Positions 24,766-41,003 of a stretch of DNA of 64,000 bases are shown in pieces; position 1 is the first letter of the stretch; each line of letters starts with the position of its first letter. The DNA comes from Erythrobacter litoralis (GTDB lineage: Bacteria; Pseudomonadota; Alphaproteobacteria; Sphingomonadales; Sphingomonadaceae), in assembly GCF_001719165.1 (NCBI RefSeq), contig NZ_CP017057.1, forward strand, positions 2,604,001 through 2,668,000. The letters are read 5' to 3'. The notes under the pieces are model-generated. The model worked only from the letters and a program-made list of their open reading frames with translations. It was not told the origin of the DNA and searched no databases. The translations under genes and the position numbers were made by a program.

Positions 24766-24840
24766 GGGCGCGTAGCTCAGTGGTAGAGCACACCCTTCAC
24801 ACGGGTGGGGTCGCAAGTTCAATCCTTGCCGCGCCCACCA
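24766..24840 (+). tRNA. tRNA-Val (anticodon CAC), island attachment site
   Basis: 75 bases including encoded CCA. Acceptor stem GGGCGCG/CGCGCCC, D-arm AGCTCAGTGGTAGAGC, anticodon stem CACCC/GGGTG around TTCACAC giving CAC for GUG codons, and T-arm CAAGTTCAATCCTTG. Its 3' portion (from 24791) is duplicated at 40953, so the integrated element restores a complete tRNA at its left end. Confidence 0.96.
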
Positions 24841-24841
24841 T
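24791..24841 (+). repeat. Left attachment-site repeat (attL), 51 bp
   Basis: Perfect 51-base copy of 40953-41003, covering the anticodon arm to the 3' end of tRNA-Val plus one flanking T. Sequences diverge immediately on both sides. Confidence 0.95.
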
Positions 24842-25037
24842 CTTTTCAATGACTTAGAAGAGATGGTCCGCATTTTTATGAAAAAATTATGGAAAAGACG
24901 CTGTAGAGTGCGCCTTGCTCCATAAGAGTGCCGGCTGCGTTCTGGCGCCATCTGCGGACTGGCGGTGTAGGCTTTGCCCGCCAATCATGCAGCGCCCGTT
25001 TCCGTTGTGAACCTTCAATCGAGCTGCCGCGTGCGCC

Positions 25038-26222
25038 TCAGTCGATGATCCGCTCCAAGCGCCCATCGCTAGGCGAGTATCGATACGATATGATCGATCG
25101 ATCTCGAATACGGTCGACAGCTTCATTGATGACCTGCAGCGGAATAGCGAACCATTCGCGCGGCTTCACCATGTGGCCGAACCGATCGGGTATCGAAAGA
25201 TCAAGCTGAGCCTCGGCGAACACCTTGTGCAGAAGGCTTTCAAGCTTCTGGCAGTTCACGCCATAAACCTTGTATGTCGCGACCACCTCGACACCAGCCA
25301 AGAGATAGGTCGAGCTTTTTTCGGCTCCGGATATTCTTGCATCGACCGAGCCGCTAGTCACTCCGATCTTGTGAACGACGTCGCGGTGCTCCGCTACGAA
25401 AGGGTGGTCGGACTTGCTTCTAAGCACATAGATCGTGCCCGCTTCCGCTTCGCCGTCTTCCGGCGTGTCCGCAAACAGAGGCCCTGGTGCCGGATCGGTA
25501 ATCCTGCGCCCTGCATCGTCGTCATGAAGCTGGCGCTGGAGCGACCGCATCAGCATCCCGCTTTCGGTGCCGTTGTCAAAGATCACGCGCAGCCGAGCAT
25601 CAGTGCGCCCTTGGGCGTTGGTGAAAATGTCTTCCATCTCGGCGACGTAAGTGATGAGCCCGCCGACGATGAAGAAAGCGCCCGGCCGAATTTCGGCTTT
25701 CAACTCGAAGGGCCGCGTCACCCGCGCGCCCGAAGCCAGCTCTTGCTTTACCTGCTCAAACAGTGGCTTGAACTTCTCGAAGTCGTGACACTTATCCCGG
25801 CGCGCTATCTCCTCGGCGGCTCGCTTTTCTTCGGCGGAGCGAACGTGGCGAAGCTGCGTAATGTCCTCTTCGCTTTCAACTGCGGACAGCTCGGAAGCCA
25901 GCGCGTCGACATCGAACTCGGCCTTCCCCTCAGTTCCGATGGAAGGCTGCTCAAGTAAACCGTGTTCATCAAGCTCCGCCAGCAACGCACGGCAGTCCTC
26001 CTGTGCGCGCAGGCGGTCGAGACGGACAGCGTAAAGCCGCTCGAATATGTCCCGGTCCTTGCCATGCTGAGGGGTGCGGCTCTGTTCTTCGAAAAAGCGG
26101 ACGATGTCCTCAAACCCCGCGATGATCCGCTCTTCGCGAGCCGTGTAAGCGGCTTGCTTCTTCTTTGCCGGAGCGAAATCGGCCAGTTCGCCGGCAAGGC
26201 CTTCTAGGTCTAGCTCACTCAT
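25038..26222 (-). CDS. GIY-YIG nuclease family protein (T5orf172/MUG113-type)
   Basis: 394 residues from MSELDLEGL. The N-terminal two-thirds is mostly helical and charged and is not recognised. The C-terminal domain (about 262-360) has a GIY-YIG pattern of the T5orf172 kind: TIYVLRSKS, HKIGVTSG with Arg296, Glu328 in KLESLLHKVF, and a terminal REWF. The fold cleaves DNA in homing and restriction enzymes. Its start overlaps the helicase stop by 8 bases, so the two are translated together and probably act together; this gene is the likely nuclease of the cassette. Confidence 0.8.
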   Translation of the reverse strand: MSELDLEGLAGELADFAPAKKKQAAYTAREERIIAGFEDIVRFFEEQSRTPQHGKDRDIFERLYAVRLDRLRAQEDCRALLAELDEHGLLEQPSIGTEGKAEFDVDALASELSAVESEEDITQLRHVRSAEEKRAAEEIARRDKCHDFEKFKPLFEQVKQELASGARVTRPFELKAEIRPGAFFIVGGLITYVAEMEDIFTNAQGRTDARLRVIFDNGTESGMLMRSLQRQLHDDDAGRRITDPAPGPLFADTPEDGEAEAGTIYVLRSKSDHPFVAEHRDVVHKIGVTSGSVDARISGAEKSSTYLLAGVEVVATYKVYGVNCQKLESLLHKVFAEAQLDLSIPDRFGHMVKPREWFAIPLQVINEAVDRIRDRSIISYRYSPSDGRLERIID

Positions 26223-28284
26223 AGCGCCCCTCTTCGCGGAAGCGCATAAAGGCTGCAGCACCTTCCGCAAGGCGCTGCTCCCATGCATCGGGCGAAGTGA
26301 CCGCAGGCAGGCGCCCGCGCTCCTTCTTGAACTTCACCGCCGCAGCGGCGAGGTCCTTCGCCTCCTCGGGGCTGATCTTCGTGCGCTTCGCAGCGATCGC
26401 AGCCTGCACCTGCTTGAGCGTGCTTTCGCTCATCGACTTTGCGAGGACGGCGTAGGCGGCCTGCCACGGGTTGATGCTGTCGATGAGGTCAACGTCGAGT
26501 TCCCGGACGTCCATCGCGTATTGCCGCACGCCCTCGAGCAACGCGGTGTTTGCCCGCTGCTCGCCATCAGCGGGATCGACGGCGTCCATCGCCAACGATT
26601 TCGCCTTCTGGGTCAGGTTGAGCGCAGCTATCGCGTGCTGGCGCACGGCTTCTTGATCCTCGGCGCTCAGGTCCGGGTAACGATCGCGAACGATAGCGCT
26701 CATCGCGACCTGGGTTAGTTCTTGCGGCGGGGTCTCTTCATCGAACATCCCGCGCTCGGCCACGGACTTCTTTTGCACAAAGGCCGCGATGACCTCGTTC
26801 AGGTCCTCATCGCAGATACGCGCGGCTTCAGGCGATTTGGGCGTGACGAGTCCGGCGATCTCGAAGTGATACTGTCCACGTTCCTCGTTAACGCCGACGT
26901 TCGCCTTGCCCTCCTGGTAGCCCTCAGGCCCGTAATCGAAATCAGGCAGTGGTCCGGCGTTCTTAGGGCTGAAGGTGAACCGCGGGGCAAGCACCTGCTC
27001 CATCAAAAGGCTGGCCGCGATAGCTTTAAGGGTGTCGTTGATCGCATCGGCCACGGCCGCTTCGGACGCATCGGGTTCGGCGATGAGGTTCGTGAAGGTC
27101 GCCGTCGCCTTGCCTGGTGCATCGCGAGTCGCGCGGCCGATGATCTGGATGATCTCGGTGAGGCTTGAGCGGTAGCCCACCGTCAGCGCGTGTTCGCACC
27201 AGATCCAGTCGAAGCCTTCCTTTGCCATCCCCAACGCGATGATGATGTCGACGTGGCCACGATCGTTCTTGTGTGCCGGGTCCTTCAGCGCCGCCAGCAC
27301 CTTCGCGCGTCGAGCCGGATCGCTGTCATCCACCAGATCGGCGATCCTCAGCACGCGGCCATCCGGCATGGCGACGAGCTCGAAGCCGGTCACGGGGTCT
27401 GCGCCCGTCCACTTGCCGAGGTAGTGGAGGATCTCGTTGACCTCGCTCACCTTGTCCTTCGTGCTCTCCCTCGCATTGACCGAAGGGATGTGCACGATCG
27501 TCTTCAGCGCCGGGTCAAGGCAATGCTCGATCGCCTCCAGATACCGGCCCGTGTAGAAGAAATAGCCGATATTGAGCGCCTTGAGGTGCTGATAACCGTT
27601 GAGCTGCTCGTAATAGGTATAGGTGACCGGCTCGAACTTCGCCTCGTCCTCCGGGGTCAGCACCGGCACGGCATCGCCGCGGAAATAGCTGCCGGTCATC
27701 GCCACGATATGCACCTTGTCGCGGGCGATGAACTCCGTGAGCTGATTGCCGAGCCGGTTGTCCTCGCCAGCAGAGACGTGGTGGAACTCGTCCACGGCGA
27801 TCAGGCGATCGTCGAACGCCTCTACGCCGAACCTCTCGACTGCGAAGCGGAAGGTGGCGTGGGTGCAGACCAGCACCCGGCCCTCACTTTCGAGGAACTG
27901 GCCGAGCGCCTTGATCTTGGACGGATCGGCCTTCTCGTCATCCGCGCCCAGCGTGTTGCACAGGTTCCACTTCGGCTTCACCGCCCAGTCCGCCCAGAAG
28001 CCGTATCGCGACAGCGGCTCGTCCCCGAAGCTGCCGCCGATCGACTTCTCGGGCACCACGATGATCACCTGGCGCAGCCCCTGATTGTGCAGCTTGTCGA
28101 GCGCGATGAACATCAGCGCGCGGCTCTTTCCCGAGGCCGGCGGCGACTTGATCAGCAGGTATTGCTCGCCGCGCTTGTTGTAGGCGCGCTCCTGCATCGG
28201 GCGCATACCCATCTCGTTCGACTTGGTCGAGGCACCGTTACGTGCGGTCTGGAACGATACGGCGGGGATGGGCTTGGTGGTCAT
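26215..28284 (-). CDS. DEAD/DEAH-box superfamily 2 helicase
   Basis: 689 residues. Helicase motifs in order: Walker A PPASGKS (48-54), motif II DEFH (165-168), motif III MTGSYF (196-201), motif V IIALGMAKEGFDW (about 348-360) and motif VI QIIGRATRD (380-388). The layout is that of restriction-type ATP-dependent translocases; the C-terminal 300 residues are helical and unassigned. No nuclease motif is visible in it. ATGA overlaps join it to the membrane-anchored gene upstream, and it overlaps the GIY-YIG gene downstream. Probable DNA translocase of a methylation-linked defence cassette. Confidence 0.85.
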   Translation of the reverse strand: MTTKPIPAVSFQTARNGASTKSNEMGMRPMQERAYNKRGEQYLLIKSPPASGKSRALMFIALDKLHNQGLRQVIIVVPEKSIGGSFGDEPLSRYGFWADWAVKPKWNLCNTLGADDEKADPSKIKALGQFLESEGRVLVCTHATFRFAVERFGVEAFDDRLIAVDEFHHVSAGEDNRLGNQLTEFIARDKVHIVAMTGSYFRGDAVPVLTPEDEAKFEPVTYTYYEQLNGYQHLKALNIGYFFYTGRYLEAIEHCLDPALKTIVHIPSVNARESTKDKVSEVNEILHYLGKWTGADPVTGFELVAMPDGRVLRIADLVDDSDPARRAKVLAALKDPAHKNDRGHVDIIIALGMAKEGFDWIWCEHALTVGYRSSLTEIIQIIGRATRDAPGKATATFTNLIAEPDASEAAVADAINDTLKAIAASLLMEQVLAPRFTFSPKNAGPLPDFDYGPEGYQEGKANVGVNEERGQYHFEIAGLVTPKSPEAARICDEDLNEVIAAFVQKKSVAERGMFDEETPPQELTQVAMSAIVRDRYPDLSAEDQEAVRQHAIAALNLTQKAKSLAMDAVDPADGEQRANTALLEGVRQYAMDVRELDVDLIDSINPWQAAYAVLAKSMSESTLKQVQAAIAAKRTKISPEEAKDLAAAAVKFKKERGRLPAVTSPDAWEQRLAEGAAAFMRFREEGRYE

Positions 28285-28991
28285 TTGGATGCCTCGCTCG
28301 CGTTCTCCTCTGGCGCATCCACCTTCTGGAACTGACGAACTTCATCTTTCATGGAGGTTGTATCGACGAAAGACACAAACTTTTTTGACGCTTTAGCCAA
28401 GACCTCAAAACGGCGATCCATTTTCTTCAAGGTATCCTCGATAGACCGAAGCGGAGGCTTTGCCATGAAGCCCGAGAGTCCGGCGAACTGCATGACATCG
28501 ATATTTGAAATCGTGTTGCGCTGACGACCGTTCACGTCTTTGCATGTTATCTTCACGCTGAAAGGCTTTAACGGGCCAATTGGCTTCTCGCCGCGGCTGC
28601 CAAAAAGATCGACGCCCAACCCAAATAGAGCAACGATTTTTTCGCCTGACGGAATAACATTGATGGGCGCGTGCGCTTTAACCGTTTTCATCAGCACACG
28701 GTGCGCCTTGAAATCAGCATCATTACAATCAATGCTGAACACCACATCTTTGGCTAGGCCAAGTCCAACATTGGCGAAAACGATGTTGATTGCGCCATTC
28801 CCGTCCGGATGCGGCAACAAATAGGCGACGACCTGTGGTTCTTGTCCAGACTGGCGAAGCCTGCGATTTTCGCGAGCCAGCTGAAATGTCAGCCAAGCGA
28901 TCGCAACGGTTGCCAGTGCCGATACGAGCGATGCGTTACCGTTCAACCAATCGAAGGTGACCATTAATTGCCCGCCAGTCGCCTCGATCAT
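28281..28991 (-). CDS. Hypothetical protein with N-terminal membrane anchor
   Basis: 236 residues from MIEATGGQL. This start is chosen because it lies one base after the stop of a tiny coupled frame; an in-frame ATG at 29039 is an alternative. One hydrophobic segment near residues 18-36 (SLVSALATVAIAWLTFQLA) is followed by a soluble domain with strands (QVVAYLLPHPDGNGAINIVFA) and a helical C-terminus. That shape, with a single anchor then a beta-rich domain, occurs in many defence-island proteins of unknown function. It sits between the methyltransferase and the helicase and shares an ATGA overlap with the helicase. Confidence 0.65.
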   Translation of the reverse strand: MIEATGGQLMVTFDWLNGNASLVSALATVAIAWLTFQLARENRRLRQSGQEPQVVAYLLPHPDGNGAINIVFANVGLGLAKDVVFSIDCNDADFKAHRVLMKTVKAHAPINVIPSGEKIVALFGLGVDLFGSRGEKPIGPLKPFSVKITCKDVNGRQRNTISNIDVMQFAGLSGFMAKPPLRSIEDTLKKMDRRFEVLAKASKKFVSFVDTTSMKDEVRQFQKVDAPEENASEASK

Positions 28992-28992
28992 C

Positions 28993-29052
28993 TCATTCAC
29001 TGGCGTTCTCCATGTTGGCCCTCCAATTTGGGGCTTCATAGCGTTTCGTCAT
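28993..29052 (-). CDS. Possible 19-residue coupled peptide
   Basis: An ATG overlapping the methyltransferase stop (ATGA) opens a 19-codon frame (MTKRYEAPNWRANMENASE) whose stop is one base from the next gene's ATG. An internal ATG at 29013 has a strong GGAGGG site. It may be a real micropeptide or just a ribosome relay that couples methyltransferase and downstream translation. Confidence 0.35.
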   Translation of the reverse strand: MTKRYEAPNWRANMENASE

Positions 29053-31805
29053 GCGGCTTTCCCCTTCCCCGTCATCTTGGTGTAAAGCTCGAACAGCTTT
29101 TCCAGCCGTTCGGTGTCGTTCTTGAAGCGGCGGCCGATGTAGATGCGTTCGAGGGTTTCGTCGTTTTCCTCGTGGGCGCGGCGGAGGTTTTCGGGCATGG
29201 CTTCGGGATTGTAGAGATCGGCGATGGTGGCGGGGAAGTGCGCCTCGCGCGCGAGCAGGATGTTCTCGGCGCAACGCGTTAGGTCAGCCTTGTTCTGCTC
29301 GGTCAGCTTGGGGAGCGGGTAGGTGTTCCAGCCCATTGTGTTGGAGTATCGGAAGTCAGTCTTCATCTTACCGCAAACTGTGGCGATCCAGACGAGGTGC
29401 AGGCGGGAGCATAGGACTCCTAGGTTCCAAAGGGGAGCGTCATACAAGCCGAACGCCAGATCCGTGAGGATGGAACCGGGAGGCAATAAGCCGGCAGGAA
29501 GATAGTCCCTATTCTCCGATGAAACCTTCGGCGCAATGGTGACGACCTCACGGCCAGTCTGCTTTACCTCCTCGAAACGGTGGGGCCATGCAGCAGCGGA
29601 CCTAGTTGGCAGCTTGGGACTTTTGCTGCGCGCTAAACGCACCGCTTCAAGTCGTTCCGAAAGTTGGTCGCGAGGGTCAAGACCGACCACGTCCTCATCG
29701 GATAGCCAGAAACAGTGACGGACATCGCCCCGAATATACTCGCTCGCTCCAAAGGCTCGTAGAACGACCTTCGTTCGTTGGGTCCATTCTCGAAGGTATG
29801 CTCGCCTTTGATCTGGAGTGAGGAACAGATGCCCCCCATCAACTGGCTTGCCCCCTGCATCCATTTGGGCACGGTCATCAGCGGGCGCCGACCTCTTGTT
29901 TACGGTGACGTCAGGTGCTGGGACCAAGTAGGCGTTGATGTGCTCAACCTCTTTGAGGATCGATCCATCGTTTGGGCCCGGGGAGTATAGCTTCTTCAGA
30001 GAAGAGGTCGGACGCGCGATGCCAATGATGGCGACCGTCACACCCGCCTTCTTAGCAGCCAGATTCGCCCATTTGAAGCTAGTGTGCGCGAACACGATCT
30101 CGTGTCCCGTAGCGAACATCAGCGGCCAGAGGATGGGAACCTGTTGCCCCTGGCAAATAGAATTGGTGGACACGAACGCTGAGACGGTGGGGGTATGCAG
30201 CCCGTAATCCGCCGCCTTGATGAACCAGCCAGCGACGTAATCGAGGGATTTCCAGCTCTTCGTCCGGTGGCCGAATAGCCGCTGTAAGTCGGCCTTCTGC
30301 TCGGCATCTTGCCAAGTGCTGCCGAGATAGGGCGGGTTCCCGCAAATGTAGGTTTCGCCACCCGCGTTCTCGAAGTCAATTTCCGACTGATCAAGCGGCG
30401 TCTGGAACAGGTCGTCCCCGCGCACCTTCACCCCCGTGCCGGTCGGTGGGCAGATACTCAGCCAATTAAGCCGCAGGGCGTTGCCGCAGGTGATCCAGTT
30501 CTGGCTATCGAGCGGCAGGAACTCGGCCAGCGCCTCCTTTTGCCCGCGATAGAGCACGTCGCATTGGTATTCGGCGATGATCAACGCCAGTCGCGCGATC
30601 TCGGCCGGGAAGTCGCGCAACTCGATGCCGCGGAAATTGGTAAGCGGGATGTCCGATCGGCGTTCGGGCTCGCCGCGCCGCTTGTTGATCTCGGCCTCGA
30701 TCGCCCGCATCTGCTTGTAGGCGATCACGAGGAAGTTGCCGCTGCCGCAGGCCGGATCGAACACGCGGATCTTGGCCATACGATTGCGTAGGTTGAGCAG
30801 CTTGCGCGCGTTCTCGCCCGCCTCATCCAGACGGCCACGCAGATCGTCGAGGAACAGCGGGTTCAGCACTTTCAGGATGTTCGGCACGCTGGTGTAATGC
30901 ATGCCGAGCGCGCCGCGCTCCTCGTCATCAGCGACCGCCTGGATCATCGAGCCGAAAATGTCGGGGTTGATCTTAGTCCAGTCGAGGTTGCCGATGTGGA
31001 TGAGGTAGGAGCGGGCGATCTTGCTGAAGCGCGGCACGTCGATGCTGCCGCTGAAGAGCTGGCCGTTGACGTAGGGAAAACCGTTCGCCCAGGTCTTGGT
31101 GCCCGCTGCCTCGCGATCTTTCAGCGGGGTGTTCATCGCGCGAAAGAGTTCGGCGATGACCTCGTGCGTGTTGTCCGCCCCGCCGCCGCTCATCCATTCG
31201 ACCGTCTCGGTGAACTTATAGCCGGCGTGGAAGATGTCGGTGTCCTCGGCGAAGAAGCAGAAGATCAGCCGGGCCATGAAGTGGTTCATGTCGGCGCGGC
31301 GATCGGCCGAGGCCCATTCGGGATTGTCCTGGAGGAGGGTGACGTAGAGCTTGTTGAGGCGCCCGGTGGCGCGGATGTCGAAGCTGCTCTCCCGGATCTG
31401 TGCGACGGTGGTGATGCCGGCGAGGGGCAGGAGGAAGCCGAAGTGGTTGGCGAAATCGGCGTATTGACAGACGACCGTCTCGCCTGTCGTAAGATCCTCG
31501 GCCTGAAGCTCATTACCGTCGGTGGCGAGGATGAAGCGTGCCTTCTGACTGGAGGTCTTGGGGCTGTTGCGGAGTTTCGTCAGCATATCGGCCACCGCGC
31601 CGGGTGCCGCCGTGGCGATGTGGATATTGCTGCGCTGGAGCACGCCGCCGGCGATGTCGGACTGATTGGTGTTGCCGGCCCGCAGACGATCGATGGTGGT
31701 TTTCTTGTTGCCAAACGCGGTGAGGAACTGGAACGGGAACTCGGCACCGTCGAATGGCAGCTGGGCGAGTTCGGTTACGGCGTCGGCGATCTCAACGGGG
31801 TTCAT
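29049..31805 (-). CDS. MmeI-like N6-adenine DNA methyltransferase without visible nuclease motif
   Basis: 918 residues, the size of type IIG MmeI-like enzymes. SAM-binding motif I is DPACGSGNF (350-358) and catalytic motif IV is NPPY (490-493), indicating N6-adenine methylation. A helical spacer precedes the methyltransferase core, and the last 350 residues should hold the target-recognition domain. MmeI relatives carry an N-terminal PD-ExK nuclease; here the first 150 residues show no D...ExK pattern (the closest segment reads LATDGNELQAEDL). It therefore looks like a stand-alone modification and specificity subunit. First gene of the cassette, divergent from the island core. Confidence 0.85.
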   Translation of the reverse strand: MNPVEIADAVTELAQLPFDGAEFPFQFLTAFGNKKTTIDRLRAGNTNQSDIAGGVLQRSNIHIATAAPGAVADMLTKLRNSPKTSSQKARFILATDGNELQAEDLTTGETVVCQYADFANHFGFLLPLAGITTVAQIRESSFDIRATGRLNKLYVTLLQDNPEWASADRRADMNHFMARLIFCFFAEDTDIFHAGYKFTETVEWMSGGGADNTHEVIAELFRAMNTPLKDREAAGTKTWANGFPYVNGQLFSGSIDVPRFSKIARSYLIHIGNLDWTKINPDIFGSMIQAVADDEERGALGMHYTSVPNILKVLNPLFLDDLRGRLDEAGENARKLLNLRNRMAKIRVFDPACGSGNFLVIAYKQMRAIEAEINKRRGEPERRSDIPLTNFRGIELRDFPAEIARLALIIAEYQCDVLYRGQKEALAEFLPLDSQNWITCGNALRLNWLSICPPTGTGVKVRGDDLFQTPLDQSEIDFENAGGETYICGNPPYLGSTWQDAEQKADLQRLFGHRTKSWKSLDYVAGWFIKAADYGLHTPTVSAFVSTNSICQGQQVPILWPLMFATGHEIVFAHTSFKWANLAAKKAGVTVAIIGIARPTSSLKKLYSPGPNDGSILKEVEHINAYLVPAPDVTVNKRSAPADDRAQMDAGGKPVDGGHLFLTPDQRRAYLREWTQRTKVVLRAFGASEYIRGDVRHCFWLSDEDVVGLDPRDQLSERLEAVRLARSKSPKLPTRSAAAWPHRFEEVKQTGREVVTIAPKVSSENRDYLPAGLLPPGSILTDLAFGLYDAPLWNLGVLCSRLHLVWIATVCGKMKTDFRYSNTMGWNTYPLPKLTEQNKADLTRCAENILLAREAHFPATIADLYNPEAMPENLRRAHEENDETLERIYIGRRFKNDTERLEKLFELYTKMTGKGKAA

Positions 31806-31970
31806 GGCATCTGATTACGTCGAGGCGATTGAAGCAACAACCTTTTCTAGGTGGAGGAGCCAGCCGGCCGAAGTGATTGATCAAGGCTCCCTTCGTGCCC
31901 TCCAAAGCATACGATGCCGTTCGACATGGTTCGACTGAAAGCTTGAATTGAGATATTCGTCTTCCTCGTG

Positions 31971-32510
31971 ATGAACGAACCTCAGAACGAAGAGCCCACA
32001 CGCCTGGAGGGCGATGCCAACTCCGTTGACACGAGCGCTTACCACGCCGCTGTCGAGCTCCATCATGGCCGAATTGAGTGGTTAGCGGAGCACATAAAAC
32101 GTTCGGATTTCCATATCGACCCGCTGGTCGCGCGCAAGATCCTTGCTCTGATCGAGCGGACCGAACCGAACCTCTTTTTTGAGCTTCGTCTCGTCCGCCG
32201 TCCCGATGTTCATTCAGCACAAAAAGACCCGCACTTAGTCGAACATCGAAACCTCGATATGGCCGTCCAAGTTGCGAGGGGTGGCGGTTTCAAGAGAGGT
32301 TTCAGGATGAAGGTTTGCCATAAGGTCGGCGAACCGAGGGGTCTGGAGGGCACCTACGTCTATCGATGCGTTAAGCCCTATCGCGATATTGCGCTCGAGA
32401 TCGTGGAGGCCGAGCAGATGCAAGCCGCCTACGAACGCGGCGAAATTGATTTTTTAGGCCGCCCAATTTCGTCACATTCAGGCTTTGCCGAAGATCCGAA
32501 CTCTCCTTAG
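31971..32510 (+). CDS. Hypothetical protein
   Basis: 179 residues from the ATG at 31971; a GTG one codon earlier is possible. Soluble, charged, no membrane segment. Notable stretches are HAAVELHHGRIEWLAEHI, PLVARKILALIERTEPN and a basic GGGFKRGFRMKV. No family recognised. It is divergent from the methyltransferase operon across a 165-base promoter region and 36 bases upstream of the AlpA-like gene, so it probably belongs to the element's core unit. Confidence 0.55.
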   Translation: MNEPQNEEPTRLEGDANSVDTSAYHAAVELHHGRIEWLAEHIKRSDFHIDPLVARKILALIERTEPNLFFELRLVRRPDVHSAQKDPHLVEHRNLDMAVQVARGGGFKRGFRMKVCHKVGEPRGLEGTYVYRCVKPYRDIALEIVEAEQMQAAYERGEIDFLGRPISSHSGFAEDPNSP

Positions 32511-32546
32511 TTGGTGTGCCCGTTCGATCATGAACGGAGACATATC

Positions 32547-32732
32547 ATGCAACACGATGTTCCCAAGCCGAAGCTGGCATACAGCATTCGGGAGGCGTGC
32601 GAGGCTACCAGCCTGAGTCGCACGACCGTCTACGCCCACATCTCCAGCGGCCGCATTAAGGCCATCCGGGTGGGTGGGCGAACCCTCATCCCCTCGGAAA
32701 GCCTCATCAAGCTCATCAACGAGGAGGGCTGA
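32547..32732 (+). CDS. AlpA/excisionase-family helix-turn-helix regulator
   Basis: 61 residues forming one MerR-like winged helix: AYSIREACEATSLSRTTVYAHI, then SGRIKAIRVGGRTLIP and SLIKLI. This matches DNA-binding proteins of the AlpA/excisionase type that switch integrases and element genes on. GGAG lies before the ATG. In gram-negative phage satellites an AlpA regulator is characteristic; here it precedes two small core genes. Confidence 0.85.
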   Translation: MQHDVPKPKLAYSIREACEATSLSRTTVYAHISSGRIKAIRVGGRTLIPSESLIKLINEEG

Positions 32733-32735
32733 GAC

Positions 32736-32954
32736 ATGGCGCTCAAGGGGCAAACCCAGCCGCCCTTCAACAACCCGCGAGAAGCGGCGCTTGCGCTCCT
32801 CATCGGCTCTGATCGGTGGTCACGCAAGGCTGCCGGTTTTCTCGGCCATATGGCTGTGATTAAGCGTCAGCTGACTGCCCGCGAAAAGGCGTGGCTGGAG
32901 GATATGCTGCTGAAGGCTGGCTACTCTGCGCTTTCCGAAGTCGAGGATCGGTGA
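32736..32954 (+). CDS. Small hypothetical protein of the island core
   Basis: 72 residues, start 3 bases after the AlpA-like stop with an AGGAGGG site. Predicted helical (REAALALLIGSDRWSRKAAGFLG, ARE then KAWLEDMLLKAGY). No family recognised. The tight spacing indicates co-expression with the AlpA-like regulator. Confidence 0.6.
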   Translation: MALKGQTQPPFNNPREAALALLIGSDRWSRKAAGFLGHMAVIKRQLTAREKAWLEDMLLKAGYSALSEVEDR

Positions 32955-33006
32955 GCGGTTGGGAATGCCCTGGGTCGATCCAATCATCGAATCCGATTGA
33001 GATGCG

Positions 33007-33870
33007 ATGGGACGCACGGCCCGGGGCATTCCACAGTCAGCCTTCATGTCTGTCGCGCCAGCAGTGACCAAACCAAAAGATCAGCATGCTTCTTTGAAAC
33101 TTCACCGCGACTCAGGATCCGGTGAAGTTTCAATTGGTGAGGCTACAGCGAGCATCGTGGAAAATCTGCGAATTGCCGAGGCTGGCACGAAAGCTGCAGT
33201 AGATACTATTACCTTAGGTGTTGCAGCCAATTCTGTCCCATGCTCAGGTCGAGGAGGCGCCCGCAATCGCTCGAACCGCGAAAGCCATGCGCTCAAGCGC
33301 TCTCAGGTCGAGAACCTACTCGCCGCGACACGCTTTGCATATGAGATTGGACTGCCCTTCAACCGGATGATCACCGTGCATTGGGAGGCAGCCGGCCTCC
33401 CCTTGTCCGACATGCCTCGTGCCACCGGACACTTCATCGACCTTCTGTCGAAAAACATGCTGCGCCGCGGGGCACAGATCGCATGGATATTTGTCCATGA
33501 AGGCGGGGAGGGCAAGGGAGGTCATGCCCACATTATCGTCCACATTGCGGATGACTTGATCGACGTGGTGACGAAGGCACAGAAGCGCTGGCTGAGAGCG
33601 ATTACAGGGATTCCCTATCGGCGGGGGGTGATCTGCACAAGGCCGATCGGTCCACGCCGAGGCGTAGAGGTGGCCAATCCTCCCCTTCATCGAGAAAACC
33701 TGGAGACGACTGTTCTCTACATTCTGAAGGGTGTCACGCCTGAGCTCGCAGGAGAGCTAGGCGTTACAAAGCTCGAGCCTGGAGGTAAGGTGATCGGCAA
33801 GCGGTGTGGCACCTCCCAGAACATCGGCCCGAAAGCGCGTGCCAAGGCTCGACGCGCTCCAGCTGCCTGA
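33007..33870 (+). CDS. Putative HUH-type replication/mobilisation endonuclease
   Basis: 287 residues; the start could also be the ATG at 33046. Three spaced motifs resemble rolling-circle Rep proteins: motif I FNRMITVHW (118-126), a His-x-His motif GGHAHIIVHI (172-180, His173 and His175) and a possible catalytic Tyr238 in LYILKG. The last 30 residues are basic. HUH enzymes nick single strands to start replication or transfer. If correct, the element can replicate or be mobilised after excision. Family assignment is by motif pattern only, and no nick site was identified. Confidence 0.5.
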   Translation: MGRTARGIPQSAFMSVAPAVTKPKDQHASLKLHRDSGSGEVSIGEATASIVENLRIAEAGTKAAVDTITLGVAANSVPCSGRGGARNRSNRESHALKRSQVENLLAATRFAYEIGLPFNRMITVHWEAAGLPLSDMPRATGHFIDLLSKNMLRRGAQIAWIFVHEGGEGKGGHAHIIVHIADDLIDVVTKAQKRWLRAITGIPYRRGVICTRPIGPRRGVEVANPPLHRENLETTVLYILKGVTPELAGELGVTKLEPGGKVIGKRCGTSQNIGPKARAKARRAPAA

Positions 33871-33873
33871 TCA

Positions 33874-34158
33874 TCAGGGCTGGACAGAGTGGACTTCCGC
33901 CGATGAGATCATGATAGCCAGAAAGACTATCAAGACCCACGCCCAACGACTGATTCTCGTTGCGCGGAAACTGCCTGATCTGGCCAGAATGATCGTGTTG
34001 CTTACGCTAATCGCCACGAGCAGCCCGATAAGAACCCCAGCGCCTGCCATCCATCCGTAGAGGGTTCCCGCCCACACCGCAGCTGCGATAACCGCGAACC
34101 AGTGCAGGTAGTGATCGGCGCGCACCCGGTTTGCATAGGCTTCGAAGTTGTCATCCAT
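33874..34158 (-). CDS. Small two-helix membrane protein
   Basis: 94 residues from MDDNFEAYAN, chosen because AAGGG lies 6 bases before it; longer frames upstream run through the operator region. Two or three hydrophobic segments (FAVIAAAVWAGTLYGWM, GAGVLIGLLVAISVSNTII, WAWVLIVFLAIMI). Function unknown. Divergent from the XRE regulator, with palindromes in between, so probably controlled by it. Confidence 0.55.
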   Translation of the reverse strand: MDDNFEAYANRVRADHYLHWFAVIAAAVWAGTLYGWMAGAGVLIGLLVAISVSNTIILARSGSFRATRISRWAWVLIVFLAIMISSAEVHSVQP

Positions 34159-34208
34159 GAGCAACCCTTGATTTGCAGCATCGACCATGATGCCGGATCG
34201 AGAGTGTA

Positions 34209-34235
34209 GAGTATACTCCGTTGTGAAATACACAA
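34209..34235. promoter_or_regulatory. Operator region between XRE gene and membrane protein
   Basis: Two palindromes lie side by side: GAGTATACTC (34209-34218, perfect) and TTGTGAAATACACAA (34221-34235, 5-bp arms). They are 20-50 bases from both divergent starts. Controller and phage-type XRE proteins bind such sites; binding here is inferred. Confidence 0.5.
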
Positions 34236-34256
34236 CATCTGGCAGCCATCTTGGCG

Positions 34257-34496
34257 ATGGCGCTGCGTCAGATCTTCGCCGAGAATCTGCGCCGCGCTCG
34301 GCTCGCGGCTGGAATGTCGCAGGAAGAGCTGGCCGACGTTGCCGGGATTGACCGGACATACGTCAGCGCTCTGGAACGGTGCCGGTATGCTGCCTCAATA
34401 GACGTCATAGAACGGCTTGCGACAGCTTTGCAGGTCACCGCTGCATCATTGCTAGAGGACACCGAGCACGTGCCGCCACGTAAGGACGATACGTAG
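34257..34496 (+). CDS. XRE-family helix-turn-helix regulator
   Basis: 79 residues. A standard Cro/C1-type HTH: NLRRARLAAGMSQEELADVAG, IDRTYVSALERCRY, SIDVIERLATALQV. Very similar in shape to controller proteins of restriction systems and to prophage repressors. ATG chosen; a TTG two codons earlier is possible. Divergent from a small membrane protein with palindromic operators between. Confidence 0.9.
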   Translation: MALRQIFAENLRRARLAAGMSQEELADVAGIDRTYVSALERCRYAASIDVIERLATALQVTAASLLEDTEHVPPRKDDT

Positions 34497-34563
34497 GAAC
34501 GTGGGCTAGACGTTCAGATGCAACGGGCAGCTACAAGCGACCATGAGCGCCAGTGCAGTCTGT

Positions 34564-34588
34564 ATATGTGTTATGATCGGCCACATAT
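34564..34588. promoter_or_regulatory. Inverted repeat upstream of DUF2280 gene
   Basis: ATATGTG and CACATAT arms (7 bp, perfect) separated by 11 bases, 34 bases before the DUF2280 start and close to a TATGAT promoter-like box. A candidate binding site for an element regulator. Confidence 0.35.
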
Positions 34589-34621
34589 TCACCACGTAGC
34601 AGCTTACCCTGGACTTACCTC

Positions 34622-35032
34622 ATGAAACGGCTTCCAGAGGCAATCAAGAGACGGATCGTCGAGCATCTGGCGTGCTTCCAGAGGCCGGCCGACGTGGTGG
34701 ACCTCATCGCCGAAGAGTTCGACGTTACTCTCACGCCTAGACACGTTCGCGCTTACGACCCGGCCTCTTTGCAGTTCGCCGGATCATGCCGCTGGCTCGA
34801 ATACCATGCTGCCGTTCGTGAGCGCTATCGCGAAGAGATCGGGAAGGTCGCGATCGCGCACCGGACCTATCGGCTGGGTAAACTGCAGCAAAGCATCGAC
34901 GCTGCCCTAAGGTTATTGGACAAGGATGACGCCACTGCGCTCGAAGCCGCTGAGCAAATCCGCAAGGCGGTCGAGACCGCTGCCAAAGAGGTAGGCAACG
35001 TCCACGTGAAATATCCCGATAGGAAATACTGA
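34622..35032 (+). CDS. DUF2280 protein (phage terminase small-subunit-like)
   Basis: 136 residues. The N-terminal half has an HTH-like arrangement (IKRRIVEHLACFQRPADVVDLIAEEFDV, then LTPRHVRAYDP) and the rest is a helical coil, as in DUF2280 proteins often found next to phage terminases. Here no large terminase subunit follows. Isolated small terminase subunits in satellites can redirect a helper phage's packaging; for this gene that is a hypothesis. Confidence 0.65.
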   Translation: MKRLPEAIKRRIVEHLACFQRPADVVDLIAEEFDVTLTPRHVRAYDPASLQFAGSCRWLEYHAAVRERYREEIGKVAIAHRTYRLGKLQQSIDAALRLLDKDDATALEAAEQIRKAVETAAKEVGNVHVKYPDRKY

Positions 35033-35071
35033 CCGAGCGCTCACATCGTGGATTTCCAGCGATATTTGACG

Positions 35072-35115
35072 TCTCGAGAAAATGTGATAGCTTCACATTT
35101 GTCGAGAGATTTTTC
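35072..35115 (+). terminator. Hairpin with T-run after DUF2280 gene
   Basis: A perfect AAATGTGA/TCACATTT stem (35080-35087 and 35093-35100) is extended outward by TCTCGA/TCGAGA with a small bulge, then GATTTTTCC. Fits an intrinsic terminator for the DUF2280 gene; the inner palindrome could alternatively be an operator for the next gene. Confidence 0.6.
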
Positions 35116-35220
35116 CTCGATGTTCCCAAACAACGGAACCGCAACCGTGAACCCGAGCCTTGAGCTCTGCTGGGTTCACAACCTGCGGCGCGAAGGCTCG
35201 GCGTCTGATGGAGACTGCCG

Positions 35221-35778
35221 ATGCACCCTGATGCGTCTAGCCAATTCTCGCTTTGGCAAGCACCCTCTGATGCGCCATCCCTCGGCGGCCAGCGCCACGT
35301 GTCGGACGACACGATGAGCGAGGCGGACATGGCCTTTCATCAGAAGCGCGGCGCCGAAGCCGACCTCCGCGAACTGATCTGGCAGTGCCGTGATCGCTAT
35401 TGCTTCGCGCACGAGCTGCTCAAACCCCACGCCGCGCTGCCCGATCGCCTGTTTGACCGTGACATGCTCGACCTTGGCCTGTTCTACTTGCCCTGGTCAG
35501 AGCTCTGCTCGGCCTGGCGCAGGACGTTCTTCGACCCGCAGATGTGCCTACTCGAAGACCAGCGAACCCGCGAGCTCCGGCGTTGGCGGACCTTCGTGGA
35601 GGACGAGGTCTTCGTACGCTTCCTCAAGCATCCCGACTGGATCCGCTGCGTGCTCGAAACCGCGAACCTCGTCCCCTTGCGCAGACCCGACTTCGAGCTC
35701 TTCGTCGGCGATCTGTTCGACGACATCATTCAGGACGTTCAAGAAAGGAACGAATATGACCACGACGACCATGACTGA
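35221..35778 (+). CDS. Hypothetical protein overlapping an alarmone hydrolase gene
   Basis: 185 residues, GGAG 10 bases before the ATG. Acidic and rich in Trp, Arg and Leu: LREL then WQCRDRYCFAHELL, LDLGLFYLPWSELCSAWRR, PDWIRCVLETANLVPLRRP. The C-terminus is a DHDDHD run encoded where it overlaps the next gene by 23 bases. No family recognised. The overlap means coupled translation with the hydrolase, as in many toxin-antitoxin or effector-regulator pairs; there is no direct evidence of toxicity. Confidence 0.55.
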   Translation: MHPDASSQFSLWQAPSDAPSLGGQRHVSDDTMSEADMAFHQKRGAEADLRELIWQCRDRYCFAHELLKPHAALPDRLFDRDMLDLGLFYLPWSELCSAWRRTFFDPQMCLLEDQRTRELRRWRTFVEDEVFVRFLKHPDWIRCVLETANLVPLRRPDFELFVGDLFDDIIQDVQERNEYDHDDHD

Positions 35779-36292
35779 CGCTGCTCGGCTGCTCGATGCT
35801 GCCAGCTTTGCTGCCGGCAGACATCGCGACCAGCGTCGCAAGGATGCGGGCGCGACACCCTACATCAACCACCCGCTCGACGTGGCGCGCATCCTCGCCG
35901 AGGCCGGCGTGGCCGACATCGAGGTGCTGATGGCGGCGATCCTGCACGATACGATCGAGGACACCGACACCACGGCCGACGAACTGGCCGAGCGCTTCGG
36001 TGAGCGAGTCTGCGGCCTCGTGCTCGAGGTGACGGACGACAAGAGTCTGCCCAAGCTTGAGCGCAAAAGGCTTCAGGTCGCGAAAGCGGAGAGCAAGTCG
36101 GACGACGCCAAGATGATCAAGCTGGCCGACAAAACTGGGAACCTGCGCGATCTGAAGTCGTCGCCTCCTGCCTGGAGCGAGGCGCGGATCGGCGCCTATG
36201 TCCAGTTTGCCGAACTGGTCGCCAGAGGATGCGCGGGAATCAGTGCGTCGCTAGACGAGCGCTTTAGGCAGGAAAGGCTGCGCTTCGACTGA
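35756..36292 (+). CDS. Small alarmone hydrolase (MESH1-like HD domain)
   Basis: 178 residues from MTTTTMTD with AAGGA upstream. It aligns closely with MESH1/RelA-SpoT hydrolase domains: metal ligands His23 (HRDQRRKD), His64-Asp65 (LHDTIEDTDTT) and Asp125 (KLADKTGNLRD) are all present, plus YINHPLDVARIL and EVTDDKSLPKLERKRLQ. No synthetase domain. Expected activity is Mn-dependent removal of pyrophosphate from (p)ppGpp-type or NADPH substrates. Presence on a mobile element, overlapping an unknown gene, suggests a role as antitoxin or in alarmone control during infection; this is inferred. Confidence 0.9.
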   Translation: MTTTTMTDAARLLDAASFAAGRHRDQRRKDAGATPYINHPLDVARILAEAGVADIEVLMAAILHDTIEDTDTTADELAERFGERVCGLVLEVTDDKSLPKLERKRLQVAKAESKSDDAKMIKLADKTGNLRDLKSSPPAWSEARIGAYVQFAELVARGCAGISASLDERFRQERLRFD

Positions 36293-36401
36293 AAGGCGCC
36301 AGTCCACTTGTGACCCAATCCAGACACAACCGCTGCCGTCTGCCTTGCGCCCTAATCTCCGACGCTGGCCGCCAACTTTTTAACTCCTGAAAGCAGACAA
36401 T

Positions 36402-37652
36402 CTAAACGCGACGTATTTCGATCGCTGTCTCGCAAAGGGAAATGCCCGACGCATGTGCGACAATACTGCAACGTCCTTCATTCTCGAAGTAGGCACCGAT
36501 CGGAACGGAGAAGCTGGTAGACAAAAGACCATCTTCGCGCACGGCCGCACCTACTGCCCTCCGCGCTTTCTCTTCTCCATTAAAGAACAAGCTAACAAAA
36601 TAGCCCATCCGCTCTTCAGGTTGCTTCGTGACGGCGGTGAGTACATTGAAAACGATCTCCGCAGGAAACTCATGCACATCCCATGCGCCGAGGGCAAACC
36701 GCCCGATGGCATGAGCGCCATCCTTGATGGTTGCGTCTCCAACGACCGCAAGGCAGCAAACCCGCACACCCGTTTGTATCGCGGAGGCATCAATCTCGGG
36801 TGTGCCGTCTGCCAAGTAGCTGTCGCCTGACAGCGCTCCGCCGACTTTTGGCCCGATGGGCTCGGTGCTACCGTCAGCGGCGACTCTCGCTAAGTAGCTC
36901 GCGCCGCCAATCTCCCCGGGCAGGCGTGCGCGTCGGCCGACAATCGCGCGATAGGTGCCTTCCTCAAGATCAACTTTACCAACAAGGATTTCGCCTCCGT
37001 CGCCACCTCTGCCACCGACGGCGTCATCCCCTATGGCAGGGGCTCCGCCCCCTCCGGAGCCTGGGGGACGGTTGTCCGGGGAGTTGCGCAACACATTGGT
37101 CCATGGAACGAGTGCCGAAGCGTCCGCCAGTCTACCGTCTTTATGGACGCGACCTCCATCTCCACCTCTTCCACCTTGGGCATTGGGCCCGATCGCGGCG
37201 CCACCGCCGCCGCCAGCACCAAGAGCTGCGCCTCCTTCGCCGCCCAGGGTTACTGTTTCGGCCGTAATGAGCACGTTTGTCTGTGCAATAGCCTCCAAAT
37301 CGTCCGAAGCGAGTGGATTGCCGTTTTCGCTCTCCTGCGTGGCCTTCCACTCTTTCAGCAAGCCGGCTGTATAGTAATTCTCGTTCCGGCGATCATCCAC
37401 GACGGCGTGATGTTTGCGACAAAGAAGCAGGAGGTTCATTTCGCTTTTGTTATCTTCGGAGCTTTGAGATTCATTCCACCTCGGGCCGTTCTCCCGCCGA
37501 GCGTGAATGTGGCAAATTTCGGTGTTGCAGACCTTGGTGCCCGTATTCTGATCGACCTCGATGTGAGGTTCCCTACAATCGGGGAATGCGCAATACAGAC
37601 TACTGCCGTACAGCTGTTTTGCCGTTGCTTCCGTCGGTCTAGGATGCTCCAT
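36402..37652 (-). CDS. HNH endonuclease with glycine-rich linker and unknown C-terminal domain
   Basis: 416 residues. The N-terminal 90 residues form a zinc-binding HNH nuclease: Cys21/Cys26, then ICHIHARRENGPRW (47-60), NLLLLCRKHH (73-82) and VVDD. This CHI-AR-GPR variant is common among defence-associated effectors. Residues about 130-230 are strongly Gly-rich (GAGGGGGAAIG, GGRGGDGG repeats). The C-terminal domain (about 235-416) is beta-rich and unrecognised; it could sense or bind the trigger. Convergent with the alarmone hydrolase gene. Isolated, so probably a single-gene system if defensive. Confidence 0.8.
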   Translation of the reverse strand: MEHPRPTEATAKQLYGSSLYCAFPDCREPHIEVDQNTGTKVCNTEICHIHARRENGPRWNESQSSEDNKSEMNLLLLCRKHHAVVDDRRNENYYTAGLLKEWKATQESENGNPLASDDLEAIAQTNVLITAETVTLGGEGGAALGAGGGGGAAIGPNAQGGRGGDGGRVHKDGRLADASALVPWTNVLRNSPDNRPPGSGGGGAPAIGDDAVGGRGGDGGEILVGKVDLEEGTYRAIVGRRARLPGEIGGASYLARVAADGSTEPIGPKVGGALSGDSYLADGTPEIDASAIQTGVRVCCLAVVGDATIKDGAHAIGRFALGAWDVHEFPAEIVFNVLTAVTKQPEERMGYFVSLFFNGEEKARRAVGAAVREDGLLSTSFSVPIGAYFENEGRCSIVAHASGISLCETAIEIRRV

Positions 37653-38237
37653 TTACGTCCTCACGTTACTCCATTCTGGGACTGAGATGGTACTACTCTT
37701 CCTCCAAGCAAATAAGAACGCTGTTCACGGGACGCACTACCGCACGTGGCCGGGCTGGCACCCATACCTCCCTAATCTTGTCCCATGGGGCCCGTAGTGC
37801 CGTCTACATACTGTTTGGCTCATTGAGTGAGTGTTTCTTACGATTGGTCGAAGAGAGAGCTGCTCTCGACCACACTGAATGCGGACTGTCCGGAATCGGC
37901 CCAGACGGGGTCTTTCGGGGACGAATTTTGAATGTCCGCTCCCCACCCAGGAGTGGCCATAGAGCGGCCCTTCCTGCTCTTCCGGCTCTTCTAAGGGCCG
38001 ACTGTCGGCTTTGACAGGCTACGGCCCGAAAGCGGCTGGTCAGCTACCGACCCCATTTAAGCCGCGAATTATTATCCGCGTTTGGGTCTGGAAGCCAATT
38101 TTGCTTTCCTGCAAGTTGCTCGCTTACTGCCTGATCAAACGTGAGGTTTGCATTTTCGAAAGCCAGTTGCGAAACATGCCAAATAATTTGGAAGACGTGC
38201 CAATTTAAGGCCCCGGCCCCCGGGGAGGAGAAAAGTA
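37653..38237. other. Long non-coding stretch in the island
   Basis: 585 bases with no supportable gene. It holds the start-side region of the HNH gene and, at the right end, the GGAGGAG ribosome site of the next gene. Part (37929-38035) shares words with 39535-39610 (CTCCCCACCCA, CCCGAAAGCGG), suggesting decayed copies of an intergenic repeat. GC falls towards the right. Confidence 0.5.
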
Positions 38238-38897
38238 ATGAAATTCCACGAAAAGGAAGTCATAGAAGTAATACGGTCGGATGATCCTGGCGCACAACCC
38301 ATCCTGATCAAGGCAAAAAACCTCGGTAAACCTAAATTCGAAGGTCAGTTTGATTTCCTGTTCGAAGACCGAGAAGATACACAACGATTAACCCGTAACG
38401 ATGTTCAGCTGGAGATGGCAAAGAATACCCGAAAAGGTGTTCTTAAGGCCTTCGCTTGGGGCTTTCCTGAAGGCGGCAGAGGGAATTTGGGTGTGAACGT
38501 GTTGGGAAACCTTGCTGGCCTTTCTGATTGTCTAGACGAAATGAAAGAAACGGGTCTCTCCGAAAGGAGTTGGGAGGCAATCAATGGCTTCCATGGCATA
38601 AAATTCGCGACAACTACGAAATTTCTCCACTTTGCTAAGATTACCTCAGCCTCTGGACCGTGTCAGATATTCGACGAAAGAGTCTGGAATTTCTTGGAAA
38701 AAGTCCAACCGGATGAGTTTTCGGCCACCCTTGAGAAACTTTCTCGCAAGCGTAGCTATGGTATAAGATACGCGACATATCTGACGTATCTCAATGATTT
38801 AAACGCGCTTGCGGACAAGCTGAGAGTTTCTGGAGCTGCGGTCGAAATGTATATGTTTAAAAACTCCCCTGACAAGCGCGCGGCACGTCATCAATGA
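38238..38897 (+). CDS. Possible HhH-GPD/OGG-fold DNA glycosylase-like protein
   Basis: 219 residues with a strong AGGAG site. AT-rich relative to neighbours. The segment INGFHGIKFATTTKFLHF followed by GPCQIFDERVWNFL recalls the helix-hairpin-helix and following region of OGG-fold glycosylases, in which a Lys and an Asp near these positions act. The rest is not recognised. It would excise or recognise modified bases; in a defence context base-excising glycosylases can act on modified phage DNA. Assignment is tentative. Confidence 0.4.
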   Translation: MKFHEKEVIEVIRSDDPGAQPILIKAKNLGKPKFEGQFDFLFEDREDTQRLTRNDVQLEMAKNTRKGVLKAFAWGFPEGGRGNLGVNVLGNLAGLSDCLDEMKETGLSERSWEAINGFHGIKFATTTKFLHFAKITSASGPCQIFDERVWNFLEKVQPDEFSATLEKLSRKRSYGIRYATYLTYLNDLNALADKLRVSGAAVEMYMFKNSPDKRAARHQ

Positions 38898-38974
38898 ATT
38901 TTTGATTGTTGAGAAATACGAAATGCGCCTTTGCCCTGACTTAAAATTCATCAACGGTGAAACGATTTTTGCGT

Positions 38975-39658: not shown

Positions 39659-40831
39659 TTAGATCGCAATGCTCGCCAGCGCCTCTTCGGCATCATCTCG
39701 CACAAGGTGCCCGTAGTGCTTTTCGATCATGGCAACGCTTGTTCCCGACAGCTGCGCCACAGTGAGGATCGGCAGGCGCTCACGGATCAAGTCGGTGATC
39801 ACACTATGGCGCAGAGTGTAGGCCGATGCGGCACGGGGCAGATCAGCCGCTTTGACCGCATCCTTGATCGGATGCTTCCAAGCGTCCTTGTTCCACGCCT
39901 CGCCGCTAGCGCGGGCGAAGATCGATGCGGCTGGCAGTTTGTTCTTCACCTGCACTTCAAAGAAGTCGGCAATCACCTGCGGCATGGTAAGCTGACGCGG
40001 GTTGCCGTTTTTGTCCTTGCCAACGGTGAGCGCCCGGGTGCGCTTGTCGAAGTCGCGCACCGTCAGGCCTGCCAGCGCACCGGGGCGCAGCGGCAAGAGG
40101 CACAACGCCTTCACGAAGGGCTTTGCCTCACCGCAGGTGGCATCGATCATCCGCTTGCGCTCATCGCGGTCGAGATACAGTTCGCGGCGCTTATCGGCCC
40201 CCTTGAACGGGCGCAGCGCCTCTTGCCATGCCGCGTCAGTGTTAGGGGCACCGGGCTTCAGCACCATGCCCAGCGCGGCGCGCAGCGGCACCATGTCGCG
40301 GTTGACGGTCGACTTGGAGCGTACTTTCGTCTGCTTCTTTTTGGCTTCCTTTGTCCGCGTAAGTAGCGCCGGGGAGTGCTCCAGCCGCTCGCGCCATGCC
40401 TTGAGGTGGTGCCGCCGGAGCTTGTCGAGCTTCACCTTGGCGATGGGATCGGAATAGACGTGCCGCCGGAAAACCCCTTCGGTGATCGATCCGGGCTTTT
40501 CCTTCAGATAGGCCTCGCAGGCATCCTTGACCGTTTCCATGTCGCGGGCGCGCTCGCCGCCGGTTTCGACCGTTTCCGCCCATGCCTCGGCGTCCGCCTT
40601 GGCCTGCTTGAAGACGTCATGCCCGGACAGGGTGCCATAGTCGCCCAGCCGCTTGCGGGCGTTGCGATTGGCCTCAGCGTCATAGAAGCGGGCAAACCAA
40701 ATGCCGCCCGCCTTCTTACGAGATGGGCGGTATCCGAGATAGACCCCTTGGCGCAGACGGTGCCAGTGCGGCTCATTGCCGTTCCGCGGCTTCAGCTTTT
40801 CGCGCTCCCCGATGCGGCTGAGATCGGCCAT
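39659..40831 (-). CDS. Tyrosine-type site-specific integrase
   Basis: 390 residues from MADLSRIGER, preceded by GGAGGG. The N-terminal part holds the arm-binding and SAM-like core-binding domains; the catalytic domain has Arg in LLPLRPGALAGL, YTLRHSVITDL (box II with Tyr instead of the usual first His), and the nucleophile Tyr in IEKHYGHL. It lies just inside the right 51-bp repeat and should integrate the element into tRNA-Val. A short AT-rich stretch between the gene and attR may hold arm sites. Confidence 0.93.
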   Translation of the reverse strand: MADLSRIGEREKLKPRNGNEPHWHRLRQGVYLGYRPSRKKAGGIWFARFYDAEANRNARKRLGDYGTLSGHDVFKQAKADAEAWAETVETGGERARDMETVKDACEAYLKEKPGSITEGVFRRHVYSDPIAKVKLDKLRRHHLKAWRERLEHSPALLTRTKEAKKKQTKVRSKSTVNRDMVPLRAALGMVLKPGAPNTDAAWQEALRPFKGADKRRELYLDRDERKRMIDATCGEAKPFVKALCLLPLRPGALAGLTVRDFDKRTRALTVGKDKNGNPRQLTMPQVIADFFEVQVKNKLPAASIFARASGEAWNKDAWKHPIKDAVKAADLPRAASAYTLRHSVITDLIRERLPILTVAQLSGTSVAMIEKHYGHLVRDDAEEALASIAI

Positions 40832-40952
40832 TTCCGCCACCCTCCAAAACTTATGAAAAAAGTATGAAAAACATGGGCGAACAACGTCGAACGCCATAGA
40901 TTGTTTTTACATGCTTTTCTTGTACGAGGAAAGCCGAATCTGTCCACTTTCC

Positions 40953-41003
40953 CACCCTTCACACGGGTGGGGTCGCAAGTTCAATCCTTGCCGCGCCCAC
41001 CAT
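40953..41003 (+). repeat. Right attachment-site repeat (attR), 51 bp
   Basis: Perfect copy of 24791-24841, the 3' part of tRNA-Val (anticodon arm to CCA plus T). No upstream tRNA half is present here, so it is a target-site remnant and not a functional tRNA. Confidence 0.95.

Follow-up and report, generated by a model that had tools for sequence, protein, structure and literature searches.

Bacillus subtilis encodes DnmA, an MmeI-like methyltransferase (MTase) without an endonuclease motif that places N6-methyladenine in GACGAG. The gene is followed by those for YeeB, a superfamily 2 (SF2) helicase, and YeeC, a T5orf172 protein, as described in portions of PMC7261158 and PMC9973331. According to PMC7261158, earlier authors had proposed that the cluster follows a Type I-like scheme. 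Among 368 neighbourhoods analysed in PMC9973331, the helicase and T5orf172 families were typically first and second downstream of the MTase, and the authors remark that in some bacteria the locus may include further, uncharacterised genes nearby. In this study, we analysed a 64,000-nt stretch of Erythrobacter litoralis (the window, whose coordinates are used throughout). It carries on the minus strand, at 25038-31805, a cassette of an MmeI-like MTase, a single-helix protein, an SF2 helicase and a GIY-YIG (T5orf172) nuclease, all coupled in this order:

29049..31805, minus strand: MmeI/DnmA-like adenine MTase, 918 aa; residues 1-159 MmeI_N without the PD-ExK motif, 326-607 MTase, 630-834 recognition domain, 837-912 C-terminal domain
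28993..29052, minus strand: 19-codon relay frame linking the MTase stop and the anchored gene; no convincing counterpart in relatives
28281..28991, minus strand: gene in the cargo slot (the anchored protein), 236 aa; N-terminal hydrophobic helix, immunoglobulin-like (Ig-like) beta-sandwich, C-terminal helix; no named family
26215..28284, minus strand: SF2 helicase, YeeB-like, 689 aa; SGKS 51-54, DEFH 165-168, QIIGRATR 380-387
25038..26222, minus strand: GIY-YIG (T5orf172/MUG113) nuclease, YeeC-like, about 394 aa from its likely start; Arg318 and Glu350 conserved (numbering of the 416-aa open reading frame, ORF)

An earlier note on this DNA had described the cassette as a possible undescribed defence system. 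Its four ORFs, their order, couplings and domains were borne out by the ORF list, the sequence and a Pfam scan. The word "undescribed" is not supported, because the same gene set and order have already been published as DnmA-YeeB-YeeC, which the note itself had named as a refutation of its proposal. From its domains, gene order and one relative annotated YeeB, the core of the window cassette appears to be a member of this published kind. We consider it likely that the locus is a restriction-modification system of the DnmA-YeeB-YeeC type on a 16.2-kb tRNA-Val element, with a Type I-like division of labour and a variable slot that holds an unrelated accessory gene.

In such a system, the MmeI-like enzyme would recognise an asymmetric site via its variable recognition domain and methylate adenine. 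On unmethylated foreign DNA, the complex would engage the ATP-driven YeeB-like translocase, which would deliver the YeeC-like GIY-YIG nuclease, and the nuclease would cut. The anchored Ig-like gene would be an insertion between MTase and helicase that has preserved translational coupling to the helicase.

The core genes and their linkage

The stop codon of the MTase (29051-29049) and the ATG of the 19-codon frame (29052-28993) overlap. The stop of this frame lies 1 base before the ATG at 28991, and the stop of the anchored gene overlaps the helicase ATG (28284). The listed ORFs of the second and fourth proteins are longer, at 28281-29039 (252 aa) and 25038-26288 (416 aa). The anchored protein probably starts at 28991 (236 aa), because an identical 236-aa database protein and its relatives start at about this point. 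The nuclease probably starts at 26222, because one relative starts at residue 23 of the window nuclease. The 19-codon frame was rejected as a conserved peptide, since a search of 120 related loci gave no convincing match (best E 1.3).

The linkage of the core genes was examined in a main sample of 100 loci, comprising the best 80 of 506 confirmed loci and 20 loci from genomes of the same family. The MTase was found upstream of the helicase in 97 loci (up to 7 kb away) and the nuclease downstream of it in 98. L042 is a broken copy, and L056 and L082 start near a contig end; L043 holds the first part of the helicase only, and L055 ends inside the helicase. A phylum-wide draw showed the helicase in 24 of 398 genomes. 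Twenty of these were taken as loci, leaving out the window's own, one already present as L039 and two with fragments. All 20 had the nuclease, and in 18 the MTase either adjoined the helicase or lay beyond an insert no longer than 1.3 kb. In L176 and L177 the MTase was a short distant match only, which was counted as unclear.

Helicase matches occurred in 264 of 72,556 plasmid records, with 154 over 80% of the helicase length; in phages, there were three weak or partial matches. The order MTase, helicase, nuclease was present in all three annotated plasmid loci inspected. The helicase of one of these, annotated YeeB, is 67% identical to that of the window, with 59% identity for the MTase and 57% for the nuclease. 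According to the annotation of plasmid 2 of Nitrobacter hamburgensis (L189), a CBASS-type operon and an McrBC-like pair flank the three core genes.

The helicase matched DEAD and ResIII in Pfam, with Helicase_C below its cut-off, and the nuclease matched T5orf172 and MUG113. In the alignment rows that span the position concerned, which include a few duplicate loci, the Walker-A Lys of the helicase was conserved in 99 of 99 rows and its DE in 98 of 98. Arg318 of the GIY-YIG domain was conserved in 92 of 93 rows and Glu350 in 93 of 93. One nuclease alignment comprised 26 rows, after nine rows and then L113 had been left out.

The MTase matched MmeI_N, MmeI_hel, MmeI_Mtase, MmeI_TRD and MmeI_C. 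Its N-P-P was conserved in 90, 90 and 89 of the 90 rows covering the respective column. The pattern D-x(6-20)-[DE]-x-K was not found in the first 87 residues of the window MTase, and this loose pattern occurred in 5 of 87 aligned MTase N-termini, at scattered positions. The solved MmeI structure aligned with the window enzyme from residue 87 onward only, even by profile, and the match spanned its MTase, recognition and C-terminal parts. The Pfam match of the N-terminus to MmeI_N (109.6 bits) indicates, at the level of sequence, that the N-terminal domain is present and that the catalytic motif is the missing part. These results agree with the earlier note, which had proposed that modification and putative cleavage are split between an MTase without a nuclease motif and a separate helicase and GIY-YIG protein. 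Elsewhere, a distant MmeI-like MTase (28% identical; L140:3463-6995) carries D-x9-E-x-K and is directly followed by a broken relative of the anchored protein.

The recognition domain is by far the most divergent part of the MTase. Its median identity to the window was 41.5%, versus 65, 77, 72 and 84% for the other four parts (86 rows, four duplicate loci kept). In the nearest relative, L047, the helicase is 93% identical and the recognition domain 43%. Such a pattern is in line with a specificity that is swapped or evolves quickly while the core stays steadier, as would be expected of working restriction, and falls short of proof.

The variable slot and the anchored protein

For the slot counts, the duplicates L048, L053, L090 and L115 were dropped, as were L042, L056 and L082, which gave no MTase hit. 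The MTase-helicase junction was longer than 250 bp in 59 of 93 distinct loci and at most 250 bp in 34. The helicase-nuclease junction exceeded 250 bp in none of 91. The slots contained 102 ORFs of 60 aa or more, which grouped into 16 families with several members and 24 singletons, and 87 of the 93 ORFs of at least 100 aa ran in the operon direction. The filled slot of L123 has a minus-strand ORF only; hence a small number of the "filled" slots may lack a gene. A dispensable, varying gene is thus embedded in a constant core.

Thirty slot proteins, including two of the phylum sample, served as representatives for annotation with Pfam, and 16 reached the curated cut-off. The families included RhuM (a family of 11), YhcG/DUF1016 (5), GmrSD_N (4) and Schlafen AlbA_2 (4), and also Fic, PDDEXK_4 (two scanned), YobI ATPase, Zeta toxin, HEPN, BrnT, RelB with YafQ, PIN and DUF3800. 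PADLOC gave 8 matches at 0.001 among 19 slot proteins, the Schlafen-like one being weak. One recurrent slot protein of about 205-237 aa has a hydrophobic N-terminus (L044:8358-8993, L051:8357-8998, L101:798-1511, L107:6459-7103 and the slot of L174). The one member scanned matched the PADLOC defence candidate PDC-S67, and its sequence is unrelated to the anchored protein of the window.

The slot was compared with a helicase tree of 93 rows (92 relatives and the window), with one locus whose helicase row was shorter than 600 aa left out. Only 3 of 24 sister pairs shared slot content, all three empty. Slot occupancy changed 26 times on the tree, versus 27.4 expected for shuffled labels (26 or fewer in 336 of 1000 shuffles). 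These results indicate that slot content is almost untied to the helicase tree. In the phylum sample, 12 of the 20 slots were empty, 6 filled and 2 unclear. The eight loci L178-L185, with helicases about 43-50% identical, all had empty slots, and slots that are often filled may therefore be typical of the nearer clade.

The slot is a single, constant site of insertion within a common operon and holds several unnamed families. Since defence- or toxin-like genes and unnamed families occur at this one point, the slot flags candidate defence genes by position alone. No published account of it was found in a limited literature search; Payne 2024 may cover it. The points worth keeping are the slot itself and the question of a functional link between its genes and the host operon. 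It is conceivable that the slot is a dedicated, rapidly exchanged effector site with genes linked to the host system, which might for example be released or triggered by an invader that blocks restriction. The Ig-like anchored protein of the window would then represent a new effector or docking class that takes helicase-GIY-YIG cleavage to the membrane. We regard this proposal as unlikely.

The anchored protein of the window matched no Pfam or PADLOC family, and its NCBIfam matches were below cut-off. A database search found 49 relatives, and the protein is rare, occurring in 6 of 397 genomes of the family and 4 of 385 of the class, with the window's own counted in both. Plasmids gave no match, and none was confirmed in viral contigs. 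The structural model (mean predicted local distance difference test score 78, predicted TM-score 0.58) has helices at the N-terminus (19-47) and the C-terminus, with strands between 53 and 163 and no evident catalytic residues. A fold search of the PDB with this model gave 1285 matches up to E 10, the best listed at 1.0e-3 and none counted at or below 0.001. Query TM-scores were at most 0.28 among the matches listed, which included Ig-like sandwiches and archaeal pilins. The protein is modelled as a membrane helix with an Ig-like sandwich, and its closest PDB folds are weak matches of a generic Ig-like type. The sandwich is probably cytoplasmic, because positive charges come after the single hydrophobic N-terminal helix.

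The earlier note had counted the anchored protein as a fourth component. One version of this proposal is a genuine system of four parts, in which the protein would hold the helicase-GIY-YIG nuclease at the inner membrane as a SNIPE-like entry block in separate chains. The reading frames are coupled on both sides of the gene, and the single hydrophobic helix followed by positive charges suits such a role, as does the recurrence of another N-terminal-helix family, the PDC-S67 protein above, in five slots. SNIPE provides a precedent, since a membrane-anchored GIY-YIG nuclease can be a defence, with anchor and nuclease in one protein (portions of PMC13190303). However, the anchored protein was absent from all 120 related helicase loci (the 100 and the 20 of the phylum draw), with other genes or nothing in its place. 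Neither helicase nor nuclease was found in any of 8 other loci with relatives of the anchored protein, and many slots are empty with the core intact. The anchored protein was therefore rejected as a conserved fourth component, and a tethered four-part system is quite improbable. The co-occurrence that the earlier note proposed to check holds for MTase, helicase and nuclease, which are widely linked, and not for the anchored protein. Under the restriction-modification reading, the anchored protein is most likely an independent or back-up defence component, not part of the cutting machine.

Activity of the core

Several points weigh against the reading of the locus as a restriction-modification system with a variable defence cargo. 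Activity of the window genes is putative, which applies to catalysis, complex formation, the methylation site, defence and any role of the anchored protein. The B. subtilis proteins were compared by description only, and a Pfam control shows that B. subtilis has an MmeI_Mtase and no more than that. Searches of PDB sequences with the helicase and nuclease profile gave no match, and neither did a PDB fold search with the nuclease model at 0.001. Since Pfam gave nothing at E 0.01 for 13 of the 30 slot representatives and a match below cut-off for one, "defence cargo" is true of part of the slot content only. In addition, PADLOC labels the MTase as a Type IIG restriction enzyme-methyltransferase (PDLC03598, 914 bits).

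This label, together with the MmeI_N match, would suit an MTase that is itself a Type IIL/IIG restriction enzyme, with the helicase and nuclease as unrelated neighbours. No D..ExK was found in the window N-terminus, though the distant L140 enzyme has one, and the linkage of the MTase to helicase and nuclease is near-constant. We consider this explanation very improbable.

The cluster of B. subtilis was termed a relic by its authors (PMC7261158, PMC9973331). Single deletions left susceptibility to three phages unchanged, as reported in a portion of PMC9973331, and transformation was unrestricted, as reported in a portion of PMC7261158. These findings suggest that in the window, too, the MTase might work as an orphan, with helicase and nuclease inert. 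However, the frames are intact and the catalytic motifs conserved in all three core genes, the divergence of the recognition domain suggests continuing selection on specificity, and plasmid carriage of the helicase is wide. The Vibrio crassostreae homologues were protective, and their deletion raised sensitivity to some phages, as told in PMC9973331. We therefore judge a relic unlikely and favour a restriction-modification system.

The integrative element and comparison with described systems

The cassette lies within an element with the following features:

24766..24840, plus strand: tRNA-Val (CAC), the apparent integration site
24791..24841, plus strand: left 51-bp direct repeat (attachment site), within tRNA-Val
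40953..41003, plus strand: right 51-bp direct repeat (attachment site), identical to the left
39659..40897, minus strand: tyrosine integrase (PF00589) of the element

The region 24791-41003 is a complete-looking 16.2-kb integrative element at tRNA-Val, because it has perfect 51-bp repeats, a tyrosine integrase and generally lower G+C inside. It also encodes an excisionase-like helix-turn-helix protein. At 36402-37652 (minus strand) lies the gene of a 416-aa protein. In PADLOC, its first approximately 110 residues match PDC-M68A and the HNH nuclease parts of CBASS/SAVED effectors, the top two matches scoring 69-74 bits. A glycine-rich stretch follows the HNH part, and Pfam HNH_2 was below cut-off only; by these matches, the gene is a possible second defence gene of the element. 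The element further encodes an OGG-like DNA glycosylase family protein at 38238-38897 (plus strand; PF21790, 56.8 bits) and an HD_4 domain protein at 35726-36292 (plus strand). The HD_4 domain is presumably of the kind found in small alarmone hydrolases.

Other described systems were compared with the cassette. DISARM class 1 was rejected, as the MTase scored 77 bits with the best DrmMI model versus 914 for PDLC03598, and no Drm helicase, DrmB or DrmC model was among the matches of the four cassette proteins, to which the scan was confined. BREX was rejected for the same four proteins, with partial PglX models at 24 bits versus cut-offs of 400-900 and no PglZ or BrxL match. The MTase shares all five Pfam domains with MmeI (Type IIL). 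It differs in that the PD-ExK motif is missing from its N-terminus, cleavage apparently coming from separate genes, and Type IIL membership was rejected because no PD-ExK lies in the same chain.

Like SNIPE, the locus has a GIY-YIG nuclease with a membrane helix in play. SNIPE is one chain with DUF4041 and without MTase or helicase (portions of PMC13190303), whereas in the window anchor and nuclease are separate genes. SNIPE membership was rejected, as the Pfam scan showed no DUF4041 in the nuclease, whose hydrophobic segments were not scored.

Defence genes embedded in restriction operons are known, namely TgvAB in a Type I restriction-modification operon and GmrSD-like genes in Hma (portions of PMC11411939). 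The slot resembles these in that accessory defence genes, GmrSD-like ones among them, lie inside a multi-gene restriction operon. It differs in that the host operon is of the DnmA-YeeB-YeeC type and one fixed junction has many alternative contents; the window gene is in no named defence family.

The closest likeness is to DnmA-YeeB-YeeC. The window has an MTase without an endonuclease motif, an SF2 helicase and a T5orf172 protein in equal order and direction, but its copy has the anchored protein between MTase and helicase and sits in a tRNA-Val integrative element. As the core is published, the finding adds mainly a well-preserved alphaproteobacterial case, with motifs intact, in which a "relic" family could be tested for activity.

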